NCBI RefSeq assembly: GCF_020510665.1
Contig: NZ_CP075187.1
Location: 496,001-560,000, forward strand
DNA from: Dechloromonas denitrificans
Lineage (GTDB): Bacteria; Pseudomonadota; Gammaproteobacteria; Burkholderiales; Rhodocyclaceae
Reading direction: 5' to 3'
Length of the DNA stretch: 64,000 nt
Made by a program: the position numbers and the translations under genes. Positions 16,200 to 62,256 of this stretch are shown here, piece after piece. The notes under the pieces are model-generated. The model had not been told where the DNA came from. It saw only the letters and a list, made by a program, of their open reading frames with translations, and ran no database searches. The stretch's first letter is position 1. Every line of letters begins with the position of its first letter.

Positions 16200-16220
16200 T
16201 CCAGCAATTCGAAAGAAACC

Positions 16221-21422: not shown

Positions 21423-21462
21423 TAATTACTTATTTTGCTATTGATTTTATGGTTGAGCTTAT

Positions 21463-25810: not shown

Positions 25811-27706
25811 ATGAGCAGCAGTCACGATTCCGCCGTCGATGCGACCGGCAAGCGCCTTGCCGTACTGGCGCTGGCCGCCCTGGGTGTGGTTTATGGCGAC
25901 ATCGGCACCAGCCCGTTGTATGCCGTAAAAGAGGTTTTTGCCGGCAATCATCCGATTCCGGTCACCGAGGCCAACATCTTCGGCAGTCTGTCGCTCTTCT
26001 TCTGGGCGCTGATCATCATTGTTTCGATCAAGTACGTCATCTTCATCATGCGGGCCGACAACCGGGGTGAAGGCGGGGTGATGGCGATGATCGCGCTGGC
26101 CTTGCACGATGCGCAGGGCAAACCGTGGCAGATGAAGGCGATCATGATCGTTGGCATTCTCGGGGCGGCAATGTTCTACGGCGACGGCATGGTCACGCCG
26201 GCCATGTCGGTGCTTTCGGCGGTCGAGGGGCTGGAGGTGATTACCCCGGCGCTCAAGTCTTTTGTGATTCCGATCACCATGCTGGTGCTATTCGGCCTGT
26301 TTTTTGTCCAGCGCAGCGGTACGGCGGTGGTCGGCGCGTTTTTCGGGCCGATCATGGTGCTGTGGTTCTCAACGCTGGCTTTGCTCGGCCTCAACAGCAT
26401 CGTTGATCATCCGGCCATTCTCTCGGCAATGAATCCGGCTTACGGGCTGGAGTTCCTGTTCGCCAACAAGGCGATGGCGCTGGTGGCGATGGGTAATGTG
26501 GTGCTGGCGGTGACCGGCGCCGAGGCTTTGTATGCCGACATGGGGCATTTTGGCCGCAAGCCTATCCAGCGTGCCTGGTTTGCCTTTGTGCTGCCGGCGC
26601 TGGTGATCAATTATTTTGGTCAGGGCGCGCTGATCCTGGCCGAGCCGGAAGCCGCCGCCAACCCGTTCTTCCACCTCGCGCCGGATTGGGCGCTGGTGCC
26701 TTTGGTCGGCCTGGCCACGGTGGCCACGGTGATTGCTTCGCAGGCGGTGATTTCCGGCGCCTTCTCGGTGACGCGCCAGGCCATGCAGCTGGGCTTCGTG
26801 CCGCGCATGGAGGTTCAGCATACGTCCGACAAGGAAGCCGGCCAGATCTACCTGCCGGCGGTGAACTGGGGCTTGATGGCGGCGGTGATGATCCTCGTGC
26901 TCGGCTTCAAGTCGTCGAACAATCTGGCCGCAGCCTACGGCATTGCGGTGACCGGCGACATGGTGATCACCTCGCTGCTCGCCACGGTGGTCGTCGCCCG
27001 CTCGTGGAAGTGGGGCTGGACGCGCGCCGTGCTGCTGTTCTCGTGCTTTCTGGCGGTTGAGCTGGTGTTCCTGGCGGCCAATATCCTCAAGATTCCCGAT
27101 GGCGGCTGGTTCCCGCTGGTTGCCGGGATGGGCGTGTTCATCCTGATGACCACCTGGAAGCGCGGCCGTCAGTTGCTGGCCGACCGCCTCAAGGGCGAGC
27201 GGCTGGAGCTGTCGATGTTCATCGAGTCGCTGGCATCGTCAATGCCAACGCGTGTCGCTGGCACATCGGTCTTTCTCAATGCCGACCCCAAGGGCGTGCC
27301 GCATGCCTTGCTCCACAACCTGATGCACAACAAGGTGCTGCATGAGCGCGTGGTGCTCGTTTCGGTGCAGTTCTTCGATGTGCCTTACGTGCCGGATATC
27401 GACCGGATCGAAGTGCGCCAGTTGAAGGAGAATTTCTGGAGCGTGGTGATCCAGTACGGCTTCAAGGATGAGCCGGATATTCCCGAGGCGCTGCTGCTCT
27501 GTGCCGATTCCGGGCTGGAGTTCAATTCGCTCGAAACCTCGTATTTCATCGGCCGCGAAACGCTGATCCCGCGCCTGGGCTCCGAAATGGCCTTCTGGCG
27601 CGAAAAGATCTTCATCGCCATGTTCCGCAACGCCGGCTCGGCAACCGCCTTCTTCAAGATACCGAGCAACCGGGTGGTCGAACTGGGAACGCAGGTGGTT
27701 TTGTAG
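25811..27706 (+). CDS. kup: Low-affinity potassium transporter Kup
   Basis: A 631-residue K+/H+ symporter of the KUP/HAK family. Twelve membrane helices fill residues 15-450, with the family signature [14 protein letters not shown] at residues 27-40 and [19 protein letters not shown]. The C-terminal cytoplasmic region ends [11 protein letters not shown]. The length is standard (E. coli 622). AAGGGG precedes ATG 25811 and a strong terminator follows. A second, clearly homologous kup lies at 45584-47449 on the other strand. Confidence 0.97.
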   Translation: MSSSHDSAVDATGKRLAVLALAALGVVYGDIGTSPLYAVKEVFAGNHPIPVTEANIFGSLSLFFWALIIIVSIKYVIFIMRADNRGEGGVMAMIALALHDAQGKPWQMKAIMIVGILGAAMFYGDGMVTPAMSVLSAVEGLEVITPALKSFVIPITMLVLFGLFFVQRSGTAVVGAFFGPIMVLWFSTLALLGLNSIVDHPAILSAMNPAYGLEFLFANKAMALVAMGNVVLAVTGAEALYADMGHFGRKPIQRAWFAFVLPALVINYFGQGALILAEPEAAANPFFHLAPDWALVPLVGLATVATVIASQAVISGAFSVTRQAMQLGFVPRMEVQHTSDKEAGQIYLPAVNWGLMAAVMILVLGFKSSNNLAAAYGIAVTGDMVITSLLATVVVARSWKWGWTRAVLLFSCFLAVELVFLAANILKIPDGGWFPLVAGMGVFILMTTWKRGRQLLADRLKGERLELSMFIESLASSMPTRVAGTSVFLNADPKGVPHALLHNLMHNKVLHERVVLVSVQFFDVPYVPDIDRIEVRQLKENFWSVVIQYGFKDEPDIPEALLLCADSGLEFNSLETSYFIGRETLIPRLGSEMAFWREKIFIAMFRNAGSATAFFKIPSNRVVELGTQVVL

Positions 27707-31869: not shown

Positions 31870-33339
31870 GTGATGCCGATGCGCCGGACGTTGTTGTCCC
31901 TGGGGGCCGTTGCGCTGCTTGCGCTCGGCGGCTGTGCCAGTTTGCCGGGCGAGGGGGCGGGCGGCTTGCCGCGTGTCTGGACGCAGTTGGGGCCGGAGGG
32001 CGAGGTTTCGTTGCGGGCGATTGTCGCGGCGAATGAAAATTGCCCTTCAGCCGAGGTCGACCGCAGCATCCGCACTATGCACTGGCGGGCGCGTCCCGGC
32101 GGTGGGCAGGGCGATGCGGCGAATCCGGCGTTCGATCCGCCGTTTGCCGTTGCGGCCTGCGAGCTGGTCTTGCCGCCGGGGGCGCGCCAGGTGCGGGTCG
32201 CCGGGCAGGCGGTTGCCTTGCCCGTTGCTTCGCCGCAGCGCATTGTCGTGCTCGGCGATACCGGTTGCCGGATCAAGGTACCGGCCAACGGCAAGGGTGA
32301 TCCGATCCAGGATTGCACCGATCCGCAGGCCTGGCCGTGGGCCGATATTGCTGCCGCAGCGGCTGCCACCCGGCCGGATCTGGTGATTCACGTCGGCGAT
32401 TACCATTACCGCGAAGTCTGCGATGACCCGGAACGTTGCCAGCCCCTGCGCGACAAGGGTGTGGTCGTGACCTACGGCTGGGCCGGCTGGAATGCCGATT
32501 TCTTCAAGCCGGCGGCGCCTTTGCTGGCGGCGGCGCCGTGGGTCTTTGTGCGTGGCAACCACGAAAATTGCGATCGGGCCGGTGAGGGCTGGATGCGTTT
32601 TCTTTCGCCGTTGCCTTATGTCGCCTGCGCCAACCAGCGTTTCCGCTCGGCCTCGCGCTCGGTGCTGGGCAATAATTTCACGGCCGAGGCTTACCGGATT
32701 CCGCTGTCGCCCGAGCTGGCGCTGGTCGTGGCCGACAATTCGGGCCATGAGGATTACCGCCCGGCCAGTGCCACGCCGGAAGATGTGGCAACTTTCGAGC
32801 AGACGCTCAAGGTGCTGCGGGCTGCCCCGGTCGACCAGAAAATCTGGCTGCTTTCGCACAAGCCGGTGTGGTACGACCTGCTCGGCCCGGCGGTGCAGCC
32901 GAATGCTTTCCAGACGGTGCTCAAGAACAGCTTGCCGGCCAATCTGCAGGTTTCTTTTGCCGGCCACCAGCATGCTTTTGCGACCTACAACTTTGCGCCG
33001 GCCAGCGATCCGCAATATCCAGCCGGGCGACCGGCACAGGTGATTGTCGGGGGCGGCGGCACGCAACTCGAAGCGCTCGATCCGCAGTCCCCGTTTTTCG
33101 AGGGGCGCAGCGGGGCTGGCAGCCGGGAACGGATGCGGCCGGATGGCCGTACCTACGACGGGGTGCCGGCGCAAAGCGGCATCCTGCTCAACCGTTACAG
33201 CTTTCTGGTGCTCGAACGCGATGCCGAGGGCTGGGCCGGGCGCGTGCTGGATACGCAGGGCGGCCTGATCAGCCGTTGCCGCTTGAGCGGCGGGGGCAAG
33301 GAAGTGGCTTGCAATTTCCCCGGTCAACCGGCGAATTAA
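31870..33339 (+). CDS. Metallophosphoesterase lipoprotein
   Basis: A 489-residue exported phosphoesterase. A lipobox (LALGGC) at about residue 23 marks it as a lipoprotein. The calcineurin-type metal motifs follow in order: VVLGDTGCRI (D-x-G variant), VIHVGDYHYRE (GD), RGNHENC (GNHE) and SFAGHQHAFATY (GHxH). It probably hydrolyses phosphate esters in the periplasm or at the outer membrane; the substrate is unknown. Possible starts are GTG 31870, ATG 31873 and ATG 31879. It overlaps the convergent photoreceptor gene by 4 bases. Confidence 0.87.
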   Translation: MMPMRRTLLSLGAVALLALGGCASLPGEGAGGLPRVWTQLGPEGEVSLRAIVAANENCPSAEVDRSIRTMHWRARPGGGQGDAANPAFDPPFAVAACELVLPPGARQVRVAGQAVALPVASPQRIVVLGDTGCRIKVPANGKGDPIQDCTDPQAWPWADIAAAAAATRPDLVIHVGDYHYREVCDDPERCQPLRDKGVVVTYGWAGWNADFFKPAAPLLAAAPWVFVRGNHENCDRAGEGWMRFLSPLPYVACANQRFRSASRSVLGNNFTAEAYRIPLSPELALVVADNSGHEDYRPASATPEDVATFEQTLKVLRAAPVDQKIWLLSHKPVWYDLLGPAVQPNAFQTVLKNSLPANLQVSFAGHQHAFATYNFAPASDPQYPAGRPAQVIVGGGGTQLEALDPQSPFFEGRSGAGSRERMRPDGRTYDGVPAQSGILLNRYSFLVLERDAEGWAGRVLDTQGGLISRCRLSGGGKEVACNFPGQPAN

Positions 33340-34280
33340 GCCGAATTCGGCGCCAGATTCGCCGCTGAATTCGCCGCTGAATTCGCCGCCCGCCATGCCT
33401 GGAGCGCAAGCACGGCAGCTTCCAGGCTGGCCAGCAGTTCGATCCCCGCCTGGCTCGGTAATCGGGCAACGCCCGCACCACCGGCCCAGAGCGCCGTCGT
33501 GCCGGGCAGCAGATGGCGCAGTTGCTGCAGCAGGGCGGGCGTCTGGCGGGCCGGATAGGCAATCGAAAACGACAGCGCCACGATATCGGCCCGATGGGCC
33601 GCCGCCGCACGGCTGATTTCGGAAAGCGGCATTTCGGTGCCGAGCGGAATGCATTCGGCCCCTTCCAGCGCGAGCAGGGCTTCAACCATGAGCAGGCCGA
33701 GCACATGCTGCTCCTCGGGCACGCTGGTCAGCAGCACGCGCGGTGCCAGCCGGCTGCTCGGCAGGCCGGCGATGGCCTGGCGCAACAGGCGCTTGGTCAG
33801 TTCGGTGAACAGGTGTTCCTCGAAGACCTCGAAGCTGCCGTCTTCCCAGGCTTCGCCGACGCGACAGGTGAGCGGTGCCACCGTGTCCTGGACAAAACGC
33901 TGTAAACCTTGCCGCCCGAGGCGCTGCTGCATCGCCTGCTGATAGGCGATACCGTCGTGCTGTTTGATCAGGGCGAGCAGTTCGGCCAGCTCCGCGCTGT
34001 CGGCCTGCGTCGTCCGGTGCTGTTCCTTGGCCCGGCGCGGGCTTAGCGTGGCCAGCTCTTCGCTGCTCGCCGGAATCAGCTTGCCGGGGCGATGCCCTTG
34101 ATCCATCAGGCGTTTTATCAGGCGCAGGCGTTCGACCTGTTCGCCCGGATAGCAGCGTTCGCCGTTTCCGTCACGGCTCGGCGTCGGGAAGCCATAGCGT
34201 CTTTCCCACATCCGCAGAACATCTTTGGAGAGGCCGGTTTCGCGCTCGACGGCGGCGATATTGAAATCCAGGGGATTCAT
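33336..34280 (-). CDS. CarH/LitR-type B12-dependent photoreceptor repressor (MerR family)
   Basis: A 314-residue regulator with an N-terminal MerR helix-turn-helix (about 8-75; GLSKDVLRMWERRYGFP), a helical cap (about 95-175) and a cobalamin-binding Rossmann domain (about 180-295). The light-sensing motif Wx9EH of CarH is intact (W145, E155, H156), and the lower-ligand motif is ExHxxG (E190, H192, G195). CarH binds adenosylcobalamin, represses as a tetramer in the dark and falls apart in light. ATG 34280 follows AGGA. The C-terminus is a short Ala/Asn repeat. It is divergent from the ten-gene run at 34385-42567 and probably controls it and itself. Confidence 0.92.
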   Translation of the reverse strand: MNPLDFNIAAVERETGLSKDVLRMWERRYGFPTPSRDGNGERCYPGEQVERLRLIKRLMDQGHRPGKLIPASSEELATLSPRRAKEQHRTTQADSAELAELLALIKQHDGIAYQQAMQQRLGRQGLQRFVQDTVAPLTCRVGEAWEDGSFEVFEEHLFTELTKRLLRQAIAGLPSSRLAPRVLLTSVPEEQHVLGLLMVEALLALEGAECIPLGTEMPLSEISRAAAAHRADIVALSFSIAYPARQTPALLQQLRHLLPGTTALWAGGAGVARLPSQAGIELLASLEAAVLALQAWRAANSAANSAANLAPNSA

Positions 34281-34370
34281 ATTTGTCCTGAACAAATGTT
34301 AGACAAAGCATTGACAAATCAAATTTTCGGCCCTATCTTACGAACAAATCTTAATTTTGTCTAGGACAAA
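34281..34370. promoter_or_regulatory. Divergent promoter region with CarH-type 11-bp direct repeats
   Basis: Read on the + strand, ACAAA recurs at 34292, 34303 and 34314, exactly 11 bases apart, as (A/G)ACAAA half-sites. Two more lie at 34344 and 34366, 22 bases apart, and the last is part of a palindrome TTTGTCTAGGACAAA (34356-34370). Thermus CarH contacts tandem 11-bp direct repeats overlapping its promoter, so this layout fits binding by the adjacent regulator. The third repeat contains the -35 hexamer of the rightward promoter. Confidence 0.8.
34311..34339 (+). promoter_or_regulatory. Sigma-70 promoter of the light-operon candidate
   Basis: TTGACA (34311-34316) and TATCTT (34334-34339) are separated by 17 bases, ahead of the glutathione peroxidase start at 34385. 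The -35 box lies inside the third 11-bp repeat, so a bound repressor would block polymerase. Confidence 0.75.
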
Positions 34371-34384
34371 GCAAGGAGTTGTCG

Positions 34385-34942
34385 ATGATCTCAGTTCTCA
34401 AGCGCTGGATGGGTATTGCCGGCTTGTTGTCGGTTGGTGTGGTGCCCGCGGCGGGTGCCGGCCAGTGCCCTGATTTGCTCAACCACAGTTTCGCCGGCCT
34501 GCAGGATGGCAAGCCGCAGTCGCTTTGCCAGTATCAGGGCAAGGTCATCCTGGTGGTCAATACCGCCAGTTACTGCGGTTTCACCAGCCAGTACGACGGC
34601 CTGGAAAAACTCTATGCCCGGCTGAAGGACAAGGGGCTGGTCGTGCTGGGCTTTCCGTCGAACGATTTTGGCGAGCAGGAGCCGGGCGGCAGCAAGGAGA
34701 TTGCCGATTTTTGCCGCCTGACTTATGGCGTCGATTTCCCGATGCTGGCCAAGTCGTCGGTCAAGGGCAAGGCGGCCAATCCCTTTTATTTGAAGCTGGC
34801 TGAAATCACCGGCAGCCGGCCGCGCTGGAATTTCCATAAATACCTGATCAACCGCGATGCGACGCAGGTGCTTTCCTTCGGCAGCATGACCACGCCGGAT
34901 GACAAGGAACTGCTGGCCAGAATCGACGCATTTCTCAAATAA
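34385..34942 (+). CDS. Exported glutathione peroxidase-like thiol peroxidase
   Basis: A 185-residue thiol peroxidase with an N-terminal signal peptide ending near AAGAGQC (about residue 25), so it acts in the periplasm. The peroxidatic Cys is in NTASYCGFTSQY, with the catalytic Gln in FPSNDFGEQEPG and Trp in RPRWNFHKYL. It should reduce lipid or hydrogen peroxides. AGGAG precedes ATG 34385. It is the first gene of the run facing the B12 photoreceptor; removal of peroxides formed by light fits that setting. Confidence 0.92.
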   Translation: MISVLKRWMGIAGLLSVGVVPAAGAGQCPDLLNHSFAGLQDGKPQSLCQYQGKVILVVNTASYCGFTSQYDGLEKLYARLKDKGLVVLGFPSNDFGEQEPGGSKEIADFCRLTYGVDFPMLAKSSVKGKAANPFYLKLAEITGSRPRWNFHKYLINRDATQVLSFGSMTTPDDKELLARIDAFLK

Positions 34943-34972
34943 GCATCCCCATCCTTTCCCGGAGCCCCGACC

Positions 34973-35773
34973 ATGAATGCCCCCGATAACTTTTTCCTGC
35001 CCGACGTGCAGTCGACCGCAGACACGCGCCGTTTGGCCATTCAGAGCGTCGGCGTCAAGGGTTTGCGCTATCCGCTGCAACTGGAAACGGCCAGCGGCGA
35101 AACGCAGAGCACCGTCGCCAACCTGACGATGACGGTCGGCTTGCCGCCCGAGGTCAAGGGCACGCACATGTCGCGCTTCGTCGAACTGCTTGAAAGCCGC
35201 AGTAGCGCGCTGACCCAGGCCGGCTTGTTCGGCATGCTCGACGAAATGCTGCTCCGGCTCGATGCCGCGAGCGGTCGCATCGAACTGGCTTTCCCGTATT
35301 TCATCAAGAAGAAAGCGCCGGTTTCCGGCGTTGAAAGCCTGCTTGATTACGATGCGACGCTGATTGCCGAGCAACTGGCCGGGCAGCCGCCAAGCCTGAC
35401 GCTGCGGGTCGTTGCGGCGGTGACCAGCCTGTGTCCGTGTTCGCGCAAGATTTCGGATTACGGCGCGCATAACCAGCGTTCGCACATCACGCTGGAGACG
35501 CGTTTGCGGACGCCGATGGCGATCGAGGAACTGGTTCGCCTGGCCGAAGAGGAGGCTTCCTGCGAGGTTTTCGGCTTGCTCAAGCGGCCGGATGAAAAGT
35601 GGGTGACTGAACGGGCCTACGACAATCCGAAGTTTGTCGAAGATCTGGTGCGCGACATCGCGCTGCGCTTGATGCGCGAGCCGCGCATCGGGCAGTGGAA
35701 GGTGATTTCCGAGAACTTCGAATCGATCCACAACCATTCGGCCTATGCCGAGTTGTCCGGCACGAACGACTGA
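34973..35773 (+). CDS. folE2: GTP cyclohydrolase FolE2 (type IB)
   Basis: A 266-residue GTP cyclohydrolase of the metal-flexible FolE2 type, which opens tetrahydrofolate synthesis by making 7,8-dihydroneopterin triphosphate. The signature SLCPCSRKISDYGAHNQRSH near residues 144-163 holds the metal-binding Cys and His, and Glu-rich ends match the family. FolE2 genes recur in light-regulated LitR/CarH clusters, where folate serves as photolyase cofactor and methyl carrier. No photolyase gene is present here. It follows the peroxidase by 30 bases with a GGAG ribosome site. Confidence 0.95.
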   Translation: MNAPDNFFLPDVQSTADTRRLAIQSVGVKGLRYPLQLETASGETQSTVANLTMTVGLPPEVKGTHMSRFVELLESRSSALTQAGLFGMLDEMLLRLDAASGRIELAFPYFIKKKAPVSGVESLLDYDATLIAEQLAGQPPSLTLRVVAAVTSLCPCSRKISDYGAHNQRSHITLETRLRTPMAIEELVRLAEEEASCEVFGLLKRPDEKWVTERAYDNPKFVEDLVRDIALRLMREPRIGQWKVISENFESIHNHSAYAELSGTND

Positions 35774-35783
35774 GAGGCGCGCC

Positions 35784-37094
35784 ATGACCCGCAAGCATCG
35801 TATCGCCGTGGTCGGCGCCGGCATTTCCGGCCTGGCCAGCGCCTGGCTGCTCAGCCAGAAGCATGAAGTGACCCTGTTCGAGGCCGCGGACTACCTCGGC
35901 GGTCACACCAACACGGTCGACGTGACGCTGGAGGGTAAAACGCATCCGGTCGATACCGGTTTCCTGGTCTTCAACGACAAGACCTATCCCAACCTGATCG
36001 CCATGTTCGAGTTGCTGGGGGTGGAGAGCGTCGAAACTGAAATGTCGTTTGCGGTCAGTCTGGAAACGCCGGATCTGGAATGGGCCGGGAGCAATCTGGC
36101 GACCGTTTTCGGGCAGAAGCGCAATCTGCTCCGACGCTCTTTCTGGACCATGCTGGCCGATATTCTGCGCTTCAACCGCGAGAGCCAGGCCTGGCTTGTC
36201 TCGTTCCAGGGCGAACAACGCAGCCTGCGCGATTTTTTGACCGAAGGCCGTTATTCGTCGGCTTTTTCGGATTGGTATCTGCTGCCGATGGCCGCGGCGA
36301 TCTGGTCGTGTCCGACCGGTCAGATGCTCGACATGCCGTTGTCCACCTTCATCCGTTTTTGTCGCAACCACGGCTTGCTGCAGGTCTTCGACCGCCCGGC
36401 GTGGCGCACGGTGCAGGGTGGCGGGCGGGCTTACGTCAGGAAAGTGGCCGAACAACTCGACGATGTGCGCCTGGCCTGCCCGGTCAGCGCCGTCAGTCGC
36501 GAGGCCGGCCAGTTGCGCGTTGTGCATGCCGGCGGCAGCGAGTTGTTCGACCGGGTGGTGATGGCCTGTCACAGCGACCAGGCGCTGGCCATTCTCGGCA
36601 TGGCGGCGAGCGACATGCAGCGCGAAATATTGTCGGCGATTCGTTACCAGCCGAACCGCGCCGTGTTGCATACCGACCGCGCCTTGCTGCCGCGCGATGA
36701 AAAGCTGTGGTCGGCGTGGAATTATTTTTCCGGCAGCGGTGCGCCGGGCGAGCAGCCGGTGGGCGTTTCCTACCTGATCAACAAGCTGCAGCCCCTGCCG
36801 TTCAAGACGCCGGTTGTCGTGACGCTCAATCCGGCGCGCGAGCCCGATCCGGCCAAAATCATTGCCGAGTTCGATTATGCCCACCCGATTTTCGATGGGC
36901 CGGCGATTGCCGCCCAGCAGCGCCTGACGCATGTCCAGGGTGAAAACGGAATCTGGCTGGCCGGTGCCTGGGGCAGCTACGGCTTCCATGAAGACGGTTT
37001 GAGATCGGCCTTGCGGGTCGCCAACAGCATGGGCATTGCCGCGCCGTGGCAGATGGCGCCGCAAACGGTCGAGCGCGAACTCGATACGGTTTGA
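35784..37094 (+). CDS. FAD-dependent amine-oxidase-like oxidoreductase
   Basis: A 436-residue flavoprotein. The FAD dinucleotide-binding motif is VVGAGISGLASAWLL (residues 9-23), followed by FEAADYLGGHTNTV. The C-terminal FAD contact is IWLAGAWGSYGFHEDGLRSAL. Relatives are annotated as NAD/FAD-binding or amine-oxidase proteins and are consistently paired with DUF1365 and a cyclopropane-synthase-like enzyme. In Rhodobacter sphaeroides related genes are part of the singlet-oxygen response and of methylated/furan fatty acid synthesis, so a role as fatty-acyl desaturase or oxidase is a fair inference. ATG 35784 is the family start. Confidence 0.88.
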   Translation: MTRKHRIAVVGAGISGLASAWLLSQKHEVTLFEAADYLGGHTNTVDVTLEGKTHPVDTGFLVFNDKTYPNLIAMFELLGVESVETEMSFAVSLETPDLEWAGSNLATVFGQKRNLLRRSFWTMLADILRFNRESQAWLVSFQGEQRSLRDFLTEGRYSSAFSDWYLLPMAAAIWSCPTGQMLDMPLSTFIRFCRNHGLLQVFDRPAWRTVQGGGRAYVRKVAEQLDDVRLACPVSAVSREAGQLRVVHAGGSELFDRVVMACHSDQALAILGMAASDMQREILSAIRYQPNRAVLHTDRALLPRDEKLWSAWNYFSGSGAPGEQPVGVSYLINKLQPLPFKTPVVVTLNPAREPDPAKIIAEFDYAHPIFDGPAIAAQQRLTHVQGENGIWLAGAWGSYGFHEDGLRSALRVANSMGIAAPWQMAPQTVERELDTV

Positions 37095-37104
37095 GCTGAC
37101 GACC

Positions 37105-37872
37105 ATGGCACCGCTTCCGCAATTGTTCATCGGCCACGTGATGCACCGGCGCTTGCGTCCGGCAGTCAATGCCTTCGTCTATCCGGTGTTCTACGTGCAG
37201 TTGCCGGTGCGCGACCTGGCGGCGGCAAATAGCCGGTTTTTCGCGGTCGACCGCAGCAATCTGCTCAGTTTCCGGCGCCAGGACCATGGCCCGCGCGATG
37301 GCAGCGAGCTGCTGCCGTGGATTCAGCAATTGCTGCGTCAGCGCGGTTTGCCGGATGACGGCGAGATCACGCTGCAATGTTTCCCGCGCCTGATGGGCTA
37401 TGTCTTCAATCCGGTCAGTTTCTGGTTTTGCCGCGACCGCAGTGGGGCGCTGGTTGCCGTTCTGGCCGAGGTGCGCAATACCTTCGGCGGGCGCCATGAA
37501 TACCTGCTGCACAACGCGGATGGCTCGCCCTTGCTCGATGGCCAGGAAATCACGGCGAGCAAGGCGTTTCATGTGTCGCCTTTCTGCGATATCGAAGGCG
37601 CTTATCGCTTCCGTTTTCATCTCGACCGTCCGGTGCCGCTGATACGCATCGATTACGACGATGCCGAGGGTGAATTGCTGCTCACCTCGATTTCCGGCAA
37701 GTCGCGTGGCTGGTCTGCCCCGGCTTTGCTCGGGGCCTGTCTGCGCATGCCTTTTCTGACGCTGGGCGTGATGCTGCGCATCCACTGGCAAGCCTTGAAA
37801 CTCTGGTTGAAAGGGGTGCCTTTCCTTGGCGCCCATCCTGTCCAACCTCCCTTGCAGGAGCCGCTGAAATGA
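37105..37872 (+). CDS. DUF1365 protein
   Basis: A 255-residue DUF1365 protein. Typical blocks are FIGHVMHRRLRPAVNAF, FPRLMGYVFNPVSFWFC and EVRNTFGGRHEYLL. Biochemistry is not settled; family members are almost always between an FAD oxidoreductase and a cyclopropane-fatty-acid-synthase-like enzyme, as here, and are thought to take part in modifying membrane acyl chains. It starts at ATG 37105, 10 bases after the oxidoreductase, and its stop overlaps the next start as ATGA. A copy of the recurrent word GGTCGACCGCAGCA lies inside it at 37245. Confidence 0.9.
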   Translation: MAPLPQLFIGHVMHRRLRPAVNAFVYPVFYVQLPVRDLAAANSRFFAVDRSNLLSFRRQDHGPRDGSELLPWIQQLLRQRGLPDDGEITLQCFPRLMGYVFNPVSFWFCRDRSGALVAVLAEVRNTFGGRHEYLLHNADGSPLLDGQEITASKAFHVSPFCDIEGAYRFRFHLDRPVPLIRIDYDDAEGELLLTSISGKSRGWSAPALLGACLRMPFLTLGVMLRIHWQALKLWLKGVPFLGAHPVQPPLQEPLK

Positions 37873-39062
37873 ACCAAACCCTGACGCTGGGCCGCAGCAG
37901 CAGCCTGAACCGCGATACCCGACTGGTTTTCGAATTGCTCGAAAAGATCAGCGGCGGCTTGCTTGAAATCCGTTTGCCGGACGGCTCCTGCGCCCTGTTC
38001 GGCGAGGGCGAGCCGGGTGTGACGATGCAGGTGCACGATGAAGCGATGTTCGGTCAGATTCTGGCAAGGGGCGATATCGGGCTGGCCGAAGCCTATCTCG
38101 ACGGCGCCTGGGATTCGCCCGACATCACCGGCCTGCTCGGCCTGCTGGCGCGCAACCGCGATGTGCTCAAGAAGGCGGTTTACGGCTCGTGGCGCGGTCT
38201 GGCGGCGGCGCGTATCCGGCATTGGCTGAACCGTAACAGCAAGGCGGGCAGCAAGCGCAACATCATGGCGCATTACGATCTCGGCAACGATTTCTACAAG
38301 CTCTGGCTCGACCCGAGCATGAGCTATTCGAGCGCATTGTTCCGGGCCGGTGAGGTCGACCGCATCGATGATCTCGAAGCGGCGCAGGAGGCCAAGTACC
38401 GCCGCATCCTGCAGCACCTGCATGCCGAACCCGGCCAGCGGGTGCTCGAAATCGGCTGCGGTTGGGGCGGTTTTGCCGAGATGGCCGTGGCTGACGGCTT
38501 GGCCGTGACCGGCCTGACGCTGTCGCCGGCCCAGTTGGCGTGGGCGCAAAAGCGCGTGCCGCAGGCCGATCTCCGGCTGCAGGATTACCGCGATACGAAT
38601 GAGTGTTTCGATCATGTCGTGTCGATCGAAATGTTCGAGGCCGTCGGCGAGCGTTTCTGGCCGGGCTATTTCAAAACCGTGGCCGCTGCGCTCAAGCCGG
38701 GTGGCCGGGCGGTGATCCAGAGCATCACGATTCGCGACGACTTGTTTGCCAGCTACCGCAAGGGGACCGATTTCATCCAGCAGTACGTTTTCCCCGGCGG
38801 CATGCTGCCCTCGCGCAGCGCTTTTCGTCGCGCGGCGGCGCGTGCCGGGCTGGTCGTGCGCGGTGAATACGCGTTCGGCGAGGATTACGCCCGAACCCTG
38901 GCCGAGTGGCGTCATGCCTTCGAAGCCCACTGGCCGCAGATTGCCGCACTCGGTTTCGACGAGCCTTTCCGTCGTTTGTGGCGGATGTATCTCTGCTATT
39001 GCGAGGCCGGTTTCCTGGCCGGGAATGTCGATGTCGTCCAGTTTGAACTGGCCCATCGCTGA
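37869..39062 (+). CDS. Cyclopropane-fatty-acyl-phospholipid synthase-like methyltransferase
   Basis: A 397-residue SAM-dependent methyltransferase acting on unsaturated acyl chains of membrane lipids. The SAM site is VLEIGCGWGGFAEMA near residues 194-208; HYDLGNDFYKLWLD, SIEMFEAVGE and YVFPGGMLPS are family hallmarks. The position of the E. coli Cys139 (YSCAYW), a bicarbonate/active-site residue, reads YSSAL here, a Cys-to-Ser change also seen in relatives that methylate rather than cyclopropanate. It may therefore make methylated or furan-precursor lipids. It is coupled to DUF1365 by ATGA. Confidence 0.92.
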   Translation: MNQTLTLGRSSSLNRDTRLVFELLEKISGGLLEIRLPDGSCALFGEGEPGVTMQVHDEAMFGQILARGDIGLAEAYLDGAWDSPDITGLLGLLARNRDVLKKAVYGSWRGLAAARIRHWLNRNSKAGSKRNIMAHYDLGNDFYKLWLDPSMSYSSALFRAGEVDRIDDLEAAQEAKYRRILQHLHAEPGQRVLEIGCGWGGFAEMAVADGLAVTGLTLSPAQLAWAQKRVPQADLRLQDYRDTNECFDHVVSIEMFEAVGERFWPGYFKTVAAALKPGGRAVIQSITIRDDLFASYRKGTDFIQQYVFPGGMLPSRSAFRRAAARAGLVVRGEYAFGEDYARTLAEWRHAFEAHWPQIAALGFDEPFRRLWRMYLCYCEAGFLAGNVDVVQFELAHR

Positions 39063-39075
39063 GCCGCCGCCGGTC

Positions 39076-39636
39076 ATGGCTGACATGTCCTGTCGCGGTC
39101 AACTGCTGGTTAGCCGGCAAAACCGCAGCTTCTCGGCCGTGCGGCGCAGCCTGCTGCTCGCGCTGGCCGCCGCGCCGCTGGCCGGTTTTGCCGCGAGCGA
39201 TCCGACGGCCGGGCTGAAGCGCTGGGGAAGCGGGGAGTTCCGCCGCTTCGGTTTCCTGGTCTACGAGGCTACCTTGTGGGCCGCCGCCGATCCGCTCCAG
39301 CCGCCGCTCGCCTTGCGCCTGACCTACAAGCGCAATATCGCCGGGTTGGCGATTGCCGAAGCGAGCATCAAGGAAATCCGCAATCTCGGCATCGGCGATG
39401 TGCCGACCCTGAAACGCTGGGGCGAGCAACTGGCCGCGCTGTTCCCCGATGTCAAACCGGGCGACCGGATTGTCGGCCATTACCAGCCGGATGCGGCCCG
39501 CTTCTATTTCAACGAACGCCTGATCGGGAAAATCGATGAGCCGCTCTTCGCGCGTGCCTTTTTCGGTATCTGGCTGGATGCCGGAACCAGCGCGCCGGAA
39601 CTGCGCACGGCGTTGCTCAAGCCGCCGGCTGACTGA
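39076..39636 (+). CDS. Chalcone-isomerase-like exported protein
   Basis: A 186-residue protein with a signal peptide (about 22-45, LLLALAAAPLAGFAA) and a chalcone-isomerase-like fold (FRRFGFLVYEATLWA, LTYKRNIAGLAIAEASIKEIRN, GDRIVGHY, GIWLDAGTSAPELRTALL). Bacterial members probably bind fatty acids or lipids rather than flavonoids. It begins 13 bases after the methyltransferase and ends 1 base before the MFS gene. It likely handles lipid products in the periplasm; this is inference. An alternative start lies at 39085. Confidence 0.85.
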   Translation: MADMSCRGQLLVSRQNRSFSAVRRSLLLALAAAPLAGFAASDPTAGLKRWGSGEFRRFGFLVYEATLWAAADPLQPPLALRLTYKRNIAGLAIAEASIKEIRNLGIGDVPTLKRWGEQLAALFPDVKPGDRIVGHYQPDAARFYFNERLIGKIDEPLFARAFFGIWLDAGTSAPELRTALLKPPAD

Positions 39637-39637
39637 G

Positions 39638-40861
39638 ATGCATGGCGGCCGCGTCCTGTCGTACGGTCTGCTCGGCCTGCCGCTGGCCTTTGCCGCCTTG
39701 CCGGTTTATGTCCATGTGCCGCATTTCTATGCCGAGACAACCGGGCTGTCGCTCGCCATGCTCGGCGCCATCCTGCTGGCCGCCCGCTTGCTCGATGCCG
39801 GCATCGATCCCTGGCTCGGCTGGCTGGCCGACCGTGTTTCGCGGCCGCGCATGGTGGCTATCGCGCTGCTGCCTTTCGCCCTCGGCTTCGTCGCCTTGCT
39901 CAATCCGCCGGGCATCGCCCCGGCCTTATGGCTGCTCGCATCGCTGGCCCTGACCTACCTGGGTTTTTCGGCGGCCAGCGTGGCCTACCAGGCGTGGGGG
40001 ACGGATGTCGGGACCGATTCTGCGCTGCGTACCCGGTTGACCGCAGCACGCGAGGGATTCGGCCTGCTCGGCGTTGTCCTGGCGGCGGCGCTGCCGGCAC
40101 TGCTGGCCAGTGATTCGAGCCAGGGCGTTGCCCGGCTGGTCTGGGTTTTTCTGCCGCTGTTACTGGTCGCCGCCGCGATCACCTTTGCCACGCATGCGGC
40201 GGCCCGTCCGCAACCCGCTGCCGCGCAGCCCTTGCTGCCCAGCCTGCGCCGTGTCTTTGCCGATCAGCCTTTCCGTCGCTTGCTGCTGGTCTTTGTCGCC
40301 AATGGCATTGCCGCCGCCTTGCCGGCCACGCTGTTCCTGTTTTTCGTCGCCGATATCCTGCAGCAGCCCCAGGCGGGCGGCCCTTTGCTGGCCGTTTATT
40401 TCGTTGCCGGGGCGCTTTCCTTGCCCCTGTGGGTCCGGCTGGCCGCCCATTTCGGACGGGTTGCCGCCTGGCTGGGGGCGATGCTGTTGTCGATCCTGGC
40501 TTTTGCCGGGGCCAGCCTGATCGGGCCGGGCGACCTGGCCGGCTTTGCCGTGATCTGCGTTGCCTCCGGGCTGGCGCTGGGTGCCGACCTGGCTTTGCCG
40601 GCGGCGATGGCGGCCGATCTCGGCGAACGCCAGGGGCAGGCGGGCGCTTGCTTCGGCGTCTGGAATTTTGTTGCCAAGCTGAATCTCGCACTGGCCGCCG
40701 GCCTTTCCCTGCCCCTGCTGGCAATGCTGGGTTATCAACCGGGCCGCGGCACCGGGCTTGCCGCCCTGAGCCTTGCCTATGCGCTGCTGCCGCTGGCTTT
40801 CAAATCACTGGCCGGGCTGCTGTTGTGGCGCTGGCGTCATTCACTGGAGATCGCATCATGA
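39638..40861 (+). CDS. MFS transporter (GPH/MelB-like)
   Basis: A 407-residue membrane protein with twelve predicted helices. The first helices (LGLPLAFAALPVYVHVPHFYAE) and the loop DPWLGWLADR match the glycoside-pentoside-hexuronide cation symporters. In lipid-modification clusters such carriers recur beside DUF3833 and SDR genes, so it may move a lipid or lyso-lipid rather than a sugar. ATG 39638 follows the previous stop by 1 base. The stop overlaps the DUF3833 start as ATGA. Confidence 0.85.
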   Translation: MHGGRVLSYGLLGLPLAFAALPVYVHVPHFYAETTGLSLAMLGAILLAARLLDAGIDPWLGWLADRVSRPRMVAIALLPFALGFVALLNPPGIAPALWLLASLALTYLGFSAASVAYQAWGTDVGTDSALRTRLTAAREGFGLLGVVLAAALPALLASDSSQGVARLVWVFLPLLLVAAAITFATHAAARPQPAAAQPLLPSLRRVFADQPFRRLLLVFVANGIAAALPATLFLFFVADILQQPQAGGPLLAVYFVAGALSLPLWVRLAAHFGRVAAWLGAMLLSILAFAGASLIGPGDLAGFAVICVASGLALGADLALPAAMAADLGERQGQAGACFGVWNFVAKLNLALAAGLSLPLLAMLGYQPGRGTGLAALSLAYALLPLAFKSLAGLLLWRWRHSLEIAS

Positions 40862-41391
40862 AACTACTGGCCGCCCTTTTTCTTTCCCTCGGCCTGAGCG
40901 GCTGCGCCTCGACCGGTGTCGAGCAATACCGCAGCGAACAGCCGGTGCTCGACCTGAAAACCTACCTCAACGGCACGCTCGATGCCTGGGGTGTCTTTCA
41001 GGGGCGCTCCGGCGAGGTCAAGAAACGCTTCCATGTGGTGATCGACGCCCAGTGGCGCGGCGATACCGGTGTGCTCGATGAAAATTTCACGTGGTCGGAC
41101 GGCACCGTCTCGCGCCGGGTGTGGACCTTGAAGCGGCAGCCGGATGGCAGTTATCGCGGCACGGCTGACGATGTCGTTGGCGAGGCAATCGGCGAGCTGG
41201 CCGGCAACGCCTTGCGCTGGCGCTATGTGCTGGCCTTGCCGGTCGATGGCAAGGTGATCCACGTCGATTTTGACGACTGGATGTTCCTGATCGACGACAC
41301 GGTGATGCTCAACCGTTCCTACATGACGAAATGGGGCTTCAACCTCGGTGAGGTGACGCTCAGTTTCGTCAAGCGGCAGGCCCGGCAATGA
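40858..41391 (+). CDS. DUF3833 lipoprotein
   Basis: A 177-residue lipoprotein of the DUF3833 family. The signal peptide ends in the lipobox LGLSGC at residue 17. The remaining domain (LKTYLNGTLDAWGVFQGRSG, FTWSDGTVSRRVW, DFDDWMFLIDDTVMLNRS) looks like a lipocalin-type beta barrel that could carry an acyl chain. ATGA overlaps at both ends couple it to the MFS carrier and the SDR gene, so the three are made together. Confidence 0.88.
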   Translation: MKLLAALFLSLGLSGCASTGVEQYRSEQPVLDLKTYLNGTLDAWGVFQGRSGEVKKRFHVVIDAQWRGDTGVLDENFTWSDGTVSRRVWTLKRQPDGSYRGTADDVVGEAIGELAGNALRWRYVLALPVDGKVIHVDFDDWMFLIDDTVMLNRSYMTKWGFNLGEVTLSFVKRQARQ

Positions 41392-42143
41392 ACCCGAAAA
41401 TCAGCCAGTGGCAGGGCAAGCGCGTCTGGCTGGTCGGCGCGTCGAGCGGTATCGGGGCGGCCATGGCGCATGAGCTGGCGCGGCGGGGGGCGCAGCTTGC
41501 CGTCTCGTCCCGCAGCCTCGATAAACTGACGGCGCTCGGCGTGGCCGGTGCGCTGCTGCTGCCGTGCGATGCGACCGACCGGGAGGCGCTGGCCCAGGCC
41601 CGGCAAACACTGATCGAGCGCTGGGGCGGCGTCGATCTGGTGGTTTATCTGGCCGGTGATTATGTGCCGATGCGGGTCGATAATTTCGATCTGGCGGTTG
41701 CCGAGCGGGTGCTGGCGGTCAATTTCAACGCCGCGCTGCGCCTCGCGGCGACGGTCTTGCCGGATCTCCGCGCTGGCGGCGGGATCGCCTTCGTCGCCAG
41801 TGTGGCCGGTTATCGCGGCTTGCCCAAGGCTTTGTGCTACGGGCCGGGCAAGGCCGCCTTGATCCATTTTGCCGAGGTGCTGCATCTCGACCTGCTGGCG
41901 CGGGGTATCGGCGTCTGGCTGATCAATCCGGGCTTTGTCGCCACCCCATTGACGGCCCAAAACGATTTCGCCATGCCCGCCTTGCTGACGCCGGAACAAG
42001 CCGCGATTGCCGCGGTCGACGGGTTTCGTAGCGGACATTTCGAAATCCATTTCCCGAAACGCTTCACCCTGATCATGAAGTTTTTGGCCCATTTGCCTTA
42101 CTGCTGGTATTTCCCGCTGATTCGCCGCTTGACCGGAGGTTGA
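41388..42143 (+). CDS. Short-chain dehydrogenase/reductase
   Basis: A 251-residue classical SDR. It has the nucleotide-binding motif GASSGIGAAMA near residues 17-27, the DVVYLAG-type loop (LVVYLAGDY), the catalytic Ser (FVASVAGYRG) and the YxxxK motif (CYGPGKAAL; Tyr and Lys present). It reduces or oxidises an unknown alcohol/ketone, perhaps on a modified acyl chain given the neighbours. It overlaps the DUF3833 gene by 4 bases and is followed after 1 base by the NTF2-like gene. Confidence 0.9.
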   Translation: MNPKISQWQGKRVWLVGASSGIGAAMAHELARRGAQLAVSSRSLDKLTALGVAGALLLPCDATDREALAQARQTLIERWGGVDLVVYLAGDYVPMRVDNFDLAVAERVLAVNFNAALRLAATVLPDLRAGGGIAFVASVAGYRGLPKALCYGPGKAALIHFAEVLHLDLLARGIGVWLINPGFVATPLTAQNDFAMPALLTPEQAAIAAVDGFRSGHFEIHFPKRFTLIMKFLAHLPYCWYFPLIRRLTGG

Positions 42144-42144
42144 A

Positions 42145-42567
42145 ATGAAACACGAGGCCTTGATTGCCTTTTTCCAGACGCTGTCGCCGGAAAGCGTGGC
42201 CGATTTTCCGGCGTTCTACACCGAGAACGCCTTTTTCAAGGACCCGTTCAACGAAGTGCGCGGTCTACCGGCCATCCAGCACATTTTCAGCCACATGTTC
42301 ACGCAGGTTGATGAGCCTCGTTTCGTGGTCACCGAGCAGGTGGTTGATGAAGGTGGCGCGATGTTGGTCTGGGAATTCTGCTTTCGGGTGCGTCTCTGGG
42401 GCAAGGGTGAAACGCAGATGATGCGCGGTGTTTCACATCTGCGTTTCGATCCGGATGGGCGGGTCAATTACCACCGCGACTACTGGGATACGGCCGAAGA
42501 GCTGTATGTCAAATTGCCGGCCATCGGCCTGCTGATGCGCGGTTTGCGGCGGGCGCTGGCGGCCTGA
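42145..42567 (+). CDS. NTF2/SnoaL-like protein
   Basis: A 140-residue cone-shaped NTF2-like fold protein (LSPESVADFPAFYTENAFFKDPFNEVRG, VSHLRFDPDGRVNYHRDYWD). Members bind or isomerise small hydrophobic molecules; no catalytic residues are certain. GGAGG precedes ATG 42145. It is the last gene of the run that starts at the glutathione peroxidase. The next gene begins about 90 bases further on and looks separately expressed. Confidence 0.87.
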   Translation: MKHEALIAFFQTLSPESVADFPAFYTENAFFKDPFNEVRGLPAIQHIFSHMFTQVDEPRFVVTEQVVDEGGAMLVWEFCFRVRLWGKGETQMMRGVSHLRFDPDGRVNYHRDYWDTAEELYVKLPAIGLLMRGLRRALAA

Positions 42568-42656
42568 GCGGTGAGCGGCCATGAAATGCTGTCAGGATGA
42601 AACGACGACAATGTTGTAAAATCTACAAATCATCCATTTTCATGGAAAGTTCCAAC

Positions 42657-43493
42657 ATGTTCGGTCGCTCCCTGCTTGTGGCGCTTATCGGTCTGCTTCC
42701 GGCATTGGCCTTGGCGCAAAATGCGGTTTATCGATTTTCTCCGGTCAATCAGTGGGATATCAACAAGACGGCAGCATATTGGAATCCGATCATCAAGTAT
42801 GTCAGCGAGCAAAGCGGGGTCAGGCTTGAGCTGAAAATCGGCCGGACATCGGCTGATACGACGGCTTATGTGCTGGCCAAGGAAGTTGAATTCGTCTTTT
42901 CCAACCACTTGTTCAGCCCAGAACGCGAGAAATTGGGCTGGAAGGTTTTCGGCCGGCGCTGGACGCCGCCGCTGCAAGGGCAGATTGCGGTGCCGGCCGA
43001 TTCGCCGATCACCCGGGTGGAAGAACTAAAAGGCCAGGAGGTTGCGTTTGCCGGGCCGGAGGCGTTCATCGGCTACAAGGTGACGCAGGGTTATCTGCAG
43101 GCCCGGAATATCGAGGTCAAGGCGCTTTTTGCCGGTAACCAGAATGCGGCGTTCGCCCAGATGTTTGCCGGCAAGGCCAAGGCGGTCGGGAGCAATTCAG
43201 CCTTGATCGATGGCTATGCCGCCAAGGAAGGCAAGAAATTCCGCGTTTTGTGGACCTCCGACAGCTATCACGACCTGGCTCTGATGGCTTCGAGCAAGGT
43301 GCCGGAGAAAGATCTCAAGGCGGTTGCCTCGGCCTTCATCGGCATGCACCGCGACCCGGTCGGCAAGGCGATTTTGCTCAAGTCTTCGCAGGAGGTCGGG
43401 CTTGATCCGCAAGCCTATTTCCTGCCTGCCACGGGCGCCGACTATGCCTCCTACCGCCGGTTCTATCAGACGGTGCCAGCCACCCCGCGCTGA
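42657..43493 (+). CDS. PhnD-like periplasmic phosphate/phosphonate-binding protein
   Basis: A 278-residue exported binding protein with a signal peptide cleaved near ALALAQ (about residue 21). It has the PhnD fold pattern: YRFSPVNQW, VEFVFSNHLF, AGPEAFIGYKVTQGYL, KAKAVGSNSALIDGYA. No ABC permease or ATPase follows. Instead a hybrid histidine kinase begins 9 bases after the stop, so it probably senses a ligand for that kinase. ATG 42657 has GGAAAG upstream; the frame opens earlier at 42642 and 42597. A short inverted repeat (TTGTA/TACAA near 42614-42628) sits in the promoter area. Confidence 0.85.
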   Translation: MFGRSLLVALIGLLPALALAQNAVYRFSPVNQWDINKTAAYWNPIIKYVSEQSGVRLELKIGRTSADTTAYVLAKEVEFVFSNHLFSPEREKLGWKVFGRRWTPPLQGQIAVPADSPITRVEELKGQEVAFAGPEAFIGYKVTQGYLQARNIEVKALFAGNQNAAFAQMFAGKAKAVGSNSALIDGYAAKEGKKFRVLWTSDSYHDLALMASSKVPEKDLKAVASAFIGMHRDPVGKAILLKSSQEVGLDPQAYFLPATGADYASYRRFYQTVPATPR

Positions 43494-45569: not shown

Positions 45570-45587
45570 GCGCCGGGCGGCGCTCAG
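45566..45587. terminator. Hairpin shared by two convergent gene ends
   Basis: CTGAGCGCC-GGGC-GGCGCTCAG is a perfect 9-bp stem that contains the stop codons of both the hybrid kinase and the convergent kup gene. It has no T-run, so it is a weak terminator or RNA-stabilising hairpin. Confidence 0.5.
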
Positions 45588-47449
45588 ATCACCAGCTGCG
45601 TACCGAGTTCGACGACACGATTGGTCGGGATCTTGAAAAAGTCGCTGGCGCTGGTCGCATTCTTCGACATCACGGCAAACAGGCGCGCCCGTGGCTGGGA
45701 GAATTTCCGGGTCAGTGCCGGGACGATGGTTTCACGCGACAGGTAGAAGGTCGTTTCCATCAGGTCGAAGCGCTCTCCAAAGCGTTTGCACTGCTCCAGC
45801 GCGCCCGGTACATCCGGGCTTTCCATGAAGCCGTAGCGCACGATCAGGCGCTTGAAGCCCTTGCTCATGTCGTGGATGAAGATGCGGTCCAGGTCGTTGA
45901 CGTAAGGCGTGTCGGTGGTCTGGATGGTCAGCAGGATGACGCGGTCGTGCAGTACCTGGTTGTGCTTCAGGTTGTGCAGCAGGGCAGCCGGCACGCCTTC
46001 CTTGGAGCTGGTCATGAAGACGGCGGTGCCGTTGATCCGGTGCACATCGTCGATGGCATTGATGAAATCGTCCATCGGGATGCTTTGCTTGGCCATTTCC
46101 AGCGAAACCAGGCGTCGACCGCGACGCCAGGTGGTCAGCACGGTAAAGGAGATGATGCCCATGGCAATCGGGAACCAGCCGCCTTCGGGAATCTTGATGG
46201 CGTTGGCGGCGAAGAAGGCGATATCGACGGCCAGCATCAGGCCGGCGACCAGGCCGACGACCAGCATGTTCCAGCGCCACATCAGGACCATCACGAAAGC
46301 GACGAGAATGGTGTCGATCAGCATGGTGCCGGTGACGGCAATGCCGTACGCCGCAGCCAGGTTGGACGAGTTCTTGAAGCCGATGACCAGGGCGACGACG
46401 GCGAGATAGAGCGTCCAGTTGGTGAACGGAACGTAGATCTGGCCTTCTTCCTGGCCTGAGGTGTGCACGATCTGCATGCGTGGCAGCAGCCCCATCTGGA
46501 TCGATTGGCGGGCGACCGAGAAGGCGCCTGAAATGACGGCCTGCGAGGCAATGACGGTGGCTGCCGTGGCCAGAATGACCATCGGGATCAAGGCCCAGTC
46601 GGGTGCCAGGTGGAAGAAGGGGCTGGCGATCGCTTCCGGTTCGGCAAGCAGCAGTGCGCCCTGGCCGAAGTAGTTGAGGACCAGGGCCGGCATGACGAAA
46701 CCAAACCAGGCCAGGCGAATCGGGAAGCGCCCGAAATGCCCCATGTCGGTATACAGCGCTTCGCCGCCGGTGACGGCCAGCACGACTGAACCGAGGGCGA
46801 GGAAGGCCAGGGCCGGGTGGGTCTGGATGAAGTGGAAAGCGTAGGTTGGCAGCAGGGCCAGCAGCACGCTTGGGTTGTGCAGGATTTCCAGCGCGCCGAG
46901 CACGCCGAGAATGCCGAACCAGGCGACCATGATCGGGCCGAAGAACATGCCGACAGTGCCGGTGCCGCGTTTCTGGATGAAGAACAGGACGGTGATGATG
47001 GTCAGCGTGATCGGGATGACATAAGGGGTCAGTTTCGGCGTGATCAGTTCCATTCCTTCGACCGCAGAAAGTACTGAAATGGCCGGGGTGATCATGCTGT
47101 CGCCGTAAAACAGTGCGGCGGCAAAAATGCCGAGCAGGGTAATCACCCAGGAGACGCGGGGATTTTTCGCCCGTTCGGTAATCAGCGCCAGCAAGGCGAG
47201 TGAGCCGCCTTCGCCCCGGTTGTCGGCCCGCATGATGATCGCGACGTATTTGACCGAGACCAGCGCAACGATTGACCAGAAGACCATCGACAGGATGCCG
47301 AGGATGTTTTCCGGGGTGACTGGAATCGGGTGGTGGCCGTTGAAGATTTCTTTCAGGGCATAGAGCGGACTGGTGCCGATGTCGCCGAAGACCACGCCGA
47401 TGGCGGCAACGGTGATTGCCGGAAGTGCTGCTTTTGAATGTGCTGTCAT
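45584..47449 (-). CDS. kup: Potassium transporter Kup, second copy
   Basis: A 621-residue KUP-family K+ uptake protein. It has the same signature as the copy at 25811 ([33 protein letters not shown], end [11 protein letters not shown]) but is clearly diverged along its length, so the duplication is old. Twelve helices and a cytoplasmic C-terminal domain are as usual. It lies alone, convergent with the hybrid kinase and divergent from the TRAP operon. Whether the two copies differ in affinity or conditions is unknown. Confidence 0.97.
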
Positions 47450-62233: not shown

Positions 62234-62256
62234 ACTCACACCCCTGTTTTATCTGC

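Follow-up and report, generated by a model that had tools for sequence, protein, structure and literature searches.

Furan fatty acid genes and their known regulators

Methylated furan fatty acids are made in Rhodobacter sphaeroides and Rhodopseudomonas palustris by the enzymes UfaD, UfaO and UfaM (UfaDOM), and the same three protein families form the core of an operon of Dechloromonas denitrificans that is described here. UfaM methylates cis-vaccenate, UfaD yields 11Me-10t,12t-18:2, and UfaO, which contains DUF1365, introduces an oxygen from O2 to give the methyl-furan (PMC7380195). The R. palustris genes RPA2571, RPA2570 and RPA2569 (D, O and M) are reported to make furan acid in R. sphaeroides deleted for its own three genes (PMC7380195). 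The D. denitrificans operon lies in a stretch of 64,000 nucleotides, called the window below, which corresponds to 496001-560000 of a single 3.46-Mb contig (NZ_CP075187.1); coordinates are window positions unless marked C1, which denotes genome positions. The operon is divergent from a gene for a MerR-type regulator with B12-binding domains. We regard it as quite probable that the operon is induced by light, makes furan fatty acids and is controlled directly by an adenosyl-B12 (AdoB12) photoreceptor.

Related genes are controlled in several ways in the described systems. In R. sphaeroides they are under RpoE-ChrR control with ufaM located elsewhere (PMC7380195), whereas the window set lies beside a B12 regulator; compared with the R. 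sphaeroides operon, the window adds genes for a glutathione peroxidase (GPx), FolE2, a chalcone-isomerase-like protein and an NTF2-like protein. In Pseudomonas mendocina and P. putida (pmlR1/pplR), an SDR, an FAD oxidoreductase, UfaM and undescribed proteins are light-induced by way of a LitR-family regulator, and folate genes and a cryptochrome are also light-responsive (PMC9758184). This Pseudomonas regulator belongs to class II LitR, which is without the C-terminal B12-binding domain, is released by a short LOV protein and uses boxes T(G/A)TACA (PMC9758184). CarH and class I LitR proteins (Thermus, Myxococcus, Bacillus) combine a MerR domain, both B12-binding domains and the cobalamin residues, as does the window regulator. 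Known members act mainly on carotenoid genes (PMC9758184), whereas the neighbours in question here are furan-lipid and DNA-repair genes. Blue light also raises VC1122, which is annotated as a cyclopropane fatty acid (CFA) gene, in Vibrio cholerae, an organism with a blue-light response that involves MerR and ChrR (PMC5241685); in the window genome no ChrR was found.

The features of the locus are as follows.

33336..34280, minus strand: CarH/LitR-like MerR regulator, predicted AdoB12-dependent dark repressor (Pfam MerR_1, B12-binding_2, B12-binding)
34282..34296: operator-like box TTTGTCCTGAACAAA, one base from the regulator start codon
34311..34339, plus strand: sigma70-type promoter of the operon, TTGACA-N17-TATCTT (-35 at 34311-34316, -10 at 34334-34339)
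34363-34335, minus strand: weaker promoter-like site for the regulator, TAGACA-N17-TAAGAT, overlapping the operon promoter
34356..34370: operator-like box TTTGTCTAGGACAAA, one of two exact copies in the genome
34385..34942, plus strand: Cys-type GPx with a signal-peptide-like N-terminus (PF00255)
34973..35773, plus strand: FolE2 (PF02649; NCBIfam FolE2 above cut-off)
35784..37094, plus strand: UfaD-like FAD acyl desaturase (Amino_oxidase, NAD_binding_8)
37105..37872, plus strand: UfaO-like DUF1365 protein, predicted furan-forming oxygenase (PF07103, 257 bits)
37869..39062, plus strand: UfaM-like S-adenosylmethionine fatty acyl methyltransferase of the CMAS family (PF02353)
39076..39636, plus strand: chalcone-isomerase-like protein, probably exported (Chalcone_3)
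39638..40861, plus strand: GPH-type MFS_2 carrier (PF13347)
40858..41391, plus strand: DUF3833 lipoprotein (PF12915)
41388..42143, plus strand: SDR oxidoreductase (adh_short)
42145..42567, plus strand: SnoaL/NTF2-like protein, the last gene of the operon (SnoaL_2)

The ten plus-strand genes span 34385-42567 with all frames open, and the gaps between them are, in order, 30, 10, 10, -4, 13, 1, -4, -4 and 1 bases. An earlier note on this DNA had described ten same-strand genes with gaps of about 30 bases or less, and the gene calls agree. Pfam also returned the families it had named (GSHPx, GCHY-1/FolE2, Amino_oxidase, DUF1365, CMAS, Chalcone_3, MFS_2, DUF3833, adh_short and SnoaL_2). Its four ATGA overlaps are reduced to three, at 37869, 40858 and 41388; the start codon context of the SnoaL-like gene is also ATGA, yet without overlap with the SDR stop. 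We infer where the operon ends, since neither a terminator-like nor a promoter-like site was seen in 42400-42760. Continuation into the next gene downstream, which is PhnD-like, is unsupported: this gene had no match in the 80 loci compared below, some of which stop earlier.

The predicted furan fatty acid core and its conservation

A DUF1365 protein, an FAD-dependent desaturase and a CMAS-family methylase are encoded together in the window, and their D-O-M order matches that implied by the R. palustris gene numbering (PMC7380195). Judged from sequence, the core of the operon is ufaD-ufaO-ufaM, a set published elsewhere as making methylated furan fatty acids. UfaD keeps GxGxxG in all 78 aligned rows, is 44% identical to the D gene of a Rhizobium tropici D-O-M set located near sigma factor and ChrR genes, and has LkcE as its nearest solved relative over its length. 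The ufaO gene is the sole DUF1365 match in the genome, and the profile of UfaO gave nothing at E 1 against solved structures. It had been claimed that several members have no assigned biochemical step; this is still true of the operon's second half but no longer of the DUF1365, FAD and CFA-synthase-like proteins, now read as UfaO, UfaD and UfaM.

The bicarbonate ligands of CFA synthases are Glu239, His266 and Tyr317 (PMC11387697). Aligned with solved CFA synthases, the window methyltransferase has the counterparts of Glu239 and Tyr317, but Gln in place of His266. Among 78 rows (77 loci and the window), the His266 position is Gln in 77 and Glu in one; at the position of Cys139, 58 rows have Ser, 17 Ala, one Cys and two another residue. 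The D-O-M set of R. tropici lies on a plasmid, with a sigma factor gene at a distance of about 1.5 kb and a ChrR gene at 2.2 kb; its methyltransferase also has Ser and Gln, whereas a separate CMAS protein of that plasmid retains Cys and His. By this comparison the window enzyme departs from CFA synthases at one of the three bicarbonate ligands and is similar to a methylase linked to the pathway. A Cupriavidus plasmid likewise encodes two CMAS proteins, one with each signature; in the window genome, UfaM is the only full-length CMAS protein (the second match reached 43 bits over part of the profile). The nearest named methyltransferase, from Dechloromonas sp. TW-R-39-2, is 98% identical; the DNA of the methyltransferase gene had no match in Escherichia coli genomes, and a search of PMC12089945 for residue-level statements on UfaM found none. 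From these residues and partner genes, methylated furan acyl chains are the likely product rather than cyclopropane ones.

For conservation analysis, UfaO was scanned in one genome per species, and the best 80 of 573 confirmed matches were taken as loci; these are consequently the nearest relatives, mostly betaproteobacteria. Sixty of them had at least 4.5 kb upstream and 6 kb downstream and were compared with profiles built from the loci, and the other 20 were set aside for short flanks. UfaD, UfaO and UfaM co-occurred in 60/60 loci. An SDR was found in 52, the SnoaL-like protein in 51, DUF3833 in 50, the chalcone-isomerase-like protein in 47, the carrier in 42, the MerR-B12 regulator in 34, GPx in 23 and FolE2 in 20. 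The complete 11-gene order of the window recurred in eight loci, which, together with the constant presence of UfaDOM, argues that the arrangement is not due to chance. FolE2 was confined to loci with the B12 regulator (20/34 versus 0/26; Fisher p 5e-7, uncorrected for kinship). None of DUF3833, SDR and SnoaL occurred in seven of the 60 loci, so that the second half of the operon is separable. On plasmid pAZKH of Azoarcus sp. KH32C (L205), the cassette and B12 regulator occur without GPx and FolE2 and with a similar promoter layout; since this plasmid is large, the cassette may move between lineages.

The B12 regulator, the operator-like boxes and the predicted regulon

The best solved match of the regulator is CarH of Thermus thermophilus, aligned along almost the full length (residues 6-292, E about 1e-27), and the protein has the MerR domain and both B12-binding domains. 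W131, E141, H142 and H177 are the cobalamin residues of CarH (PMC11796333), and their equivalents, in the motifs W-x9-E-H and E-x-H-x-x-G, were kept in 47/47 regulators including that of the window, after one 88-aa fragment had been dropped. Membership of class II LitR was not found, because B12-binding PF02310 scored 39 bits, above its cut-off; the window regulator differs from that class in having both B12 domains with their residues and in its box, TTGTCYWGGACAA. By these sequence features the regulator is CarH-like, without being the named CarH equivalog, and the earlier placement of the gene set under a B12 photoreceptor is upheld to that degree. No other regulator of this kind was found in the genome (one further hit, at 27% identity, covered just a part of the B12 domain), and the genome also encodes a cobalamin adenosyltransferase of the CobA/CobO/BtuR family. 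CarH forms DNA-binding tetramers with coenzyme B12 only (PMC4557120).

The divergent promoter region is flanked by the palindrome TTTGTCYWGGACAAA, and the order box, TTGACA, 17 bases, TATCTT, box is common to many upstream regions of the regulator. In 48 such regions (47 loci and the window; one mismatch allowed), a box-flanked promoter was present in 26 and at least two boxes in 33, and neither occurred in 200 base-shuffled sets. The exact TTTGTCYWGGACAAA was found in 42 of 121 genomes of the family and the reversed pattern in 1/121, with UfaO in 51/121. Box and UfaO occurred together in 40 genomes, the box only in 2, UfaO only in 11 and neither in 68 (Fisher p 2e-19, uncorrected for kinship). 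Boxes with up to two mismatches were not used, as they gave 86 matches in the genome versus 54 for the reversed pattern. A one-mismatch box was also noted inside the regulator gene (33883-33895). We predict from their conservation and position that the boxes are operators of the B12 regulator.

To describe the predicted regulon, the exact box was located in 41 related genomes, the own genome excluded and close boxes counted as one place, and the resulting 55 places were screened by tblastn for matches to the operon proteins, to lipocalin and DPRP and to CPD photolyase. Regulator or ufa genes adjoin 36 of the 55, as expected because the box was derived there, and the other 19 constitute the real test. 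Seven of these lie by photolyase or cryptochrome clusters (L159, L164, L177, L183, L195, L199 and L201), the photolyase or cryptochrome being the second gene in L159, L199 and probably L201. Two others lie by a lone GPx gene (L161 and L163), with a photolyase two kilobases further on in L163. Overall, photolyase-family matches were obtained in 8 of the 19 non-ufa stretches (the seven and L163) versus 1 of the 36 ufa stretches (L180). Exact boxes total two in the 3.46-Mb genome, that of the operon and one at C1:961566. The latter is 43 bases upstream of a lipocalin gene on the minus strand, behind which comes a photolyase-related (DPRP) gene.

Several side observations concern these places. The lipocalin and DPRP genes (L115:6289-8581; genome C1:959288-961580) form a predicted second light operon. 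Fasciclin-domain genes at an exact box in two genomes of one genus (L152 near 6068, L156 near 6049) are possible members of a light regulon. ABC1-kinase-like genes lie near an exact box in two genomes, at L159:6087-9023 and L165:7089-8444; the L159 gene is accompanied by a DUF3429 gene and, by eye, an SDR, and is divergent from lipocalin-DPRP.

Loci free of the B12 regulator point to further wirings. Inspection by eye showed a TetR-like gene divergent from ufaD in 10 of 33 such loci, in the genera Undibacterium, Jeongeupia, Leeia and Chitinibacter; about six of the 33 end too early for a judgement. On the Cupriavidus plasmid a TetR is annotated at that place, and lipocalin and cryptochrome/photolyase genes are also present. 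TetR control of ufa genes is suggested by this position. In two alphaproteobacteria (L065 and L080; by eye), a photolyase directly precedes ufaD. Counting the B12, TetR, sigma-ChrR and class II LitR settings, one lipid gene set is thus found next to regulators of at least four kinds. The lipid chemistry and the photoreceptor are each known, and their wiring together appears to be new; no report linking a B12-type LitR/CarH to furan lipids was found in a search that covered few subscription papers and is not proof of novelty.

Mechanism, alternatives and remaining genes

In the proposed mechanism, the CarH-like repressor with AdoB12 would bind in the dark to the boxes on both sides of the divergent promoter and would shut off the operon and, probably, its own expression. 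Light would break the cobalt-carbon bond (green light in published work on CarH; blue and UV light act as well), release the repressor and allow transcription. UfaM would methylate a cis-unsaturated acyl chain in membrane phospholipid, UfaD would then form the methylated diene, and UfaO would add oxygen, closing a methyl-furan ring that acts as a sink for singlet oxygen. Lipid hydroperoxides would be cleared by the peroxidase, and the extra FolE2 would raise the supply of pterin or folate, perhaps for photolyase antennae. As the same repressor should control the lipocalin and photolyase-related genes elsewhere in the genome, we read the system as one in which light would jointly induce the synthesis of furan lipids, the removal of peroxides and DNA repair. 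The earlier idea of light control and membrane-lipid remodelling is computationally well supported by the CarH-type regulator with its cobalamin residues, the conserved and photolyase-adjacent boxes and the ufaDOM set.

Three other explanations were weighed. The operon could make cyclopropane or other methyl-branched lipids and no furan, given that the methyltransferase is in the CMAS family, has CFA synthases as its best solved relatives and is labelled CFA synthase in several database records. We consider this unlikely and set it aside because of the changed bicarbonate ligand, seen in 77/78 rows, and the DUF1365 partner. The R. tropici methyltransferase beside D and O shares the change, whereas the separate CMAS protein there does not; DUF1365, furan-forming in print, is present in 60/60 loci, a count that is expected because the loci were found via UfaO.

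The signal itself could also be another than light. If the regulator answered cobalamin supply, loss of AdoB12 would derepress what would then be a B12-shortage operon, and the need of CarH tetramers for coenzyme B12 (PMC4557120) implies that loss of B12 derepresses as well. This is quite improbable, as the identified neighbours of the boxes are mostly photolyases, cryptochromes, lipocalin and peroxidases and, as far as seen, not B12 genes. It is very improbable that singlet oxygen or lipid peroxide, acting via an extracytoplasmic function (ECF) sigma factor, is the primary signal and the B12 regulator secondary. The R. sphaeroides homologues do belong to the RpoE-ChrR regulon, and the R. tropici D-O-M set lies near sigma and ChrR genes. 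However, the ChrR cupin PF12973 had no match in the genome, in a search that did not extend to other ECF sigma factors, and the operon promoter, TTGACA-N17-TATCTT, is sigma70-like. The Rhodobacter-type singlet-oxygen control raised earlier is therefore not borne out for this genome, and light is most likely sensed directly, which agrees with the preferred reading of a light-induced furan fatty acid operon under the AdoB12 photoreceptor.

A number of results weigh against that reading. The regulator scored 118 bits in the NCBIfam CarH equivalog model, against a cut-off of 400, and was absent within 7 kb in 26 of the 60 loci. The flanked promoter was missing from 22 of the 48 upstream regions at the criteria used, 11 of 51 UfaO genomes are without the exact box, and in the window genome no exact box adjoins the CPD-type photolyase. 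No light-related neighbour was identified at 10 of the 55 box places (L151, L152, L153, L155, L156, L165, L166, L181, L182 and L194); in the subset scanned, two adjoin fasciclin-domain genes, an ABC1-kinase gene lies near a third and a PAS-LytTR regulator near a fourth. The compared genomes are related, so that the counts are not independent, and the likeness to R. sphaeroides UfaM, UfaD and UfaO was judged from protein families and from the R. tropici set. We infer light induction, the direction of control, the lipid product and the roles of the second half from the DNA.

The two accessory enzymes, GPx and FolE2, would have roles in the light response. The catalytic tetrad of GPx (Cys, Gln, Trp, Asn) is kept in 34/34 rows, and the lone GPx genes of L161 and L163 adjoin the same box. 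A second FolE2 gene was found at C1:1057882 and no FolE1. This removes the idea of the operon's FolE2 as sole GTP cyclohydrolase, which would argue against light-only expression.

In the second half of the operon, the carrier matched MelB (E 1e-7) and, weakly, a lysophosphatidylcholine symporter (E 0.0016). Cys16 of the DUF3833 protein is invariant in 49/49 rows with a lipobox in 54/57, and the SDR keeps Ser, Tyr and Lys in 58/58. Against solved structures, the DUF3833 profile and the chalcone-isomerase-like protein gave nothing at E 1, and the SnoaL-like protein gave weak hits only. A hydrophobic N-terminal run was present in only 38/60 chalcone-isomerase-like relatives, which makes export of this protein less sure. 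Deletion of R. sphaeroides RSP1087, RSP1088 or RSP1089 is reported to have left the fatty acid profile unchanged, and these genes to be dispensable for furan synthesis (PMC7380195). By their lengths (245, 186 and 402 aa), they would fit the SDR, DUF3833 protein and carrier, respectively; the reported restriction of RSP1089-1087 to Rhodobacteraceae (PMC3818230) counts against this match. On a Paracoccus plasmid, UfaD, DUF1365, MFS and SDR genes stand in a row. The export-like arm proposed in the earlier note finds no backing, given the three dispensable genes (PMC7380195) and the hydrophobic run in 38/60. With low confidence, we favour handling or turnover of furan acyl chains. More speculatively, and doubtful at present, the second half might be a new lipid pathway that finishes furan chains, moves them to the outer membrane, or recycles them and their singlet-oxygen breakdown products, switched by light through B12 before damage occurs.

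Elsewhere in the window, a low-GC island was noted at 17962-24543 (about 37-40% GC in 18-24 kb versus about 60-65% in most of the window). By eye, polymerase-, flippase- and glycosyltransferase-like genes follow nucleotide-sugar genes at 14272-17372, and the island looks like a surface polysaccharide locus, perhaps an acquired one. Also by eye, two adjacent minus-strand genes at 12245-13848 have the look of an AbiEii/AbiEi-type pair, and Kup-type potassium transporter genes lie at 25811-27706 and 45584-47449, on opposite strands and about 18 kb apart. RNase P RNA class A (Rfam RF00010, 310 bits) is at 61839-62235.

If the proposed control is correct, non-photosynthetic betaproteobacteria would make singlet-oxygen-quenching furan lipids ahead of damage by means of a B12 light switch, while for related genes this role falls to a damage-sensing sigma factor in Rhodobacter and to a LOV-controlled repressor in Pseudomonas. 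This would be a clear example of a single lipid pathway with rewired regulation and would widen the targets of CarH-type regulators beyond carotenoids. The defined box would then allow prediction of the light regulon in the family, and the second half of the operon would be directly testable.

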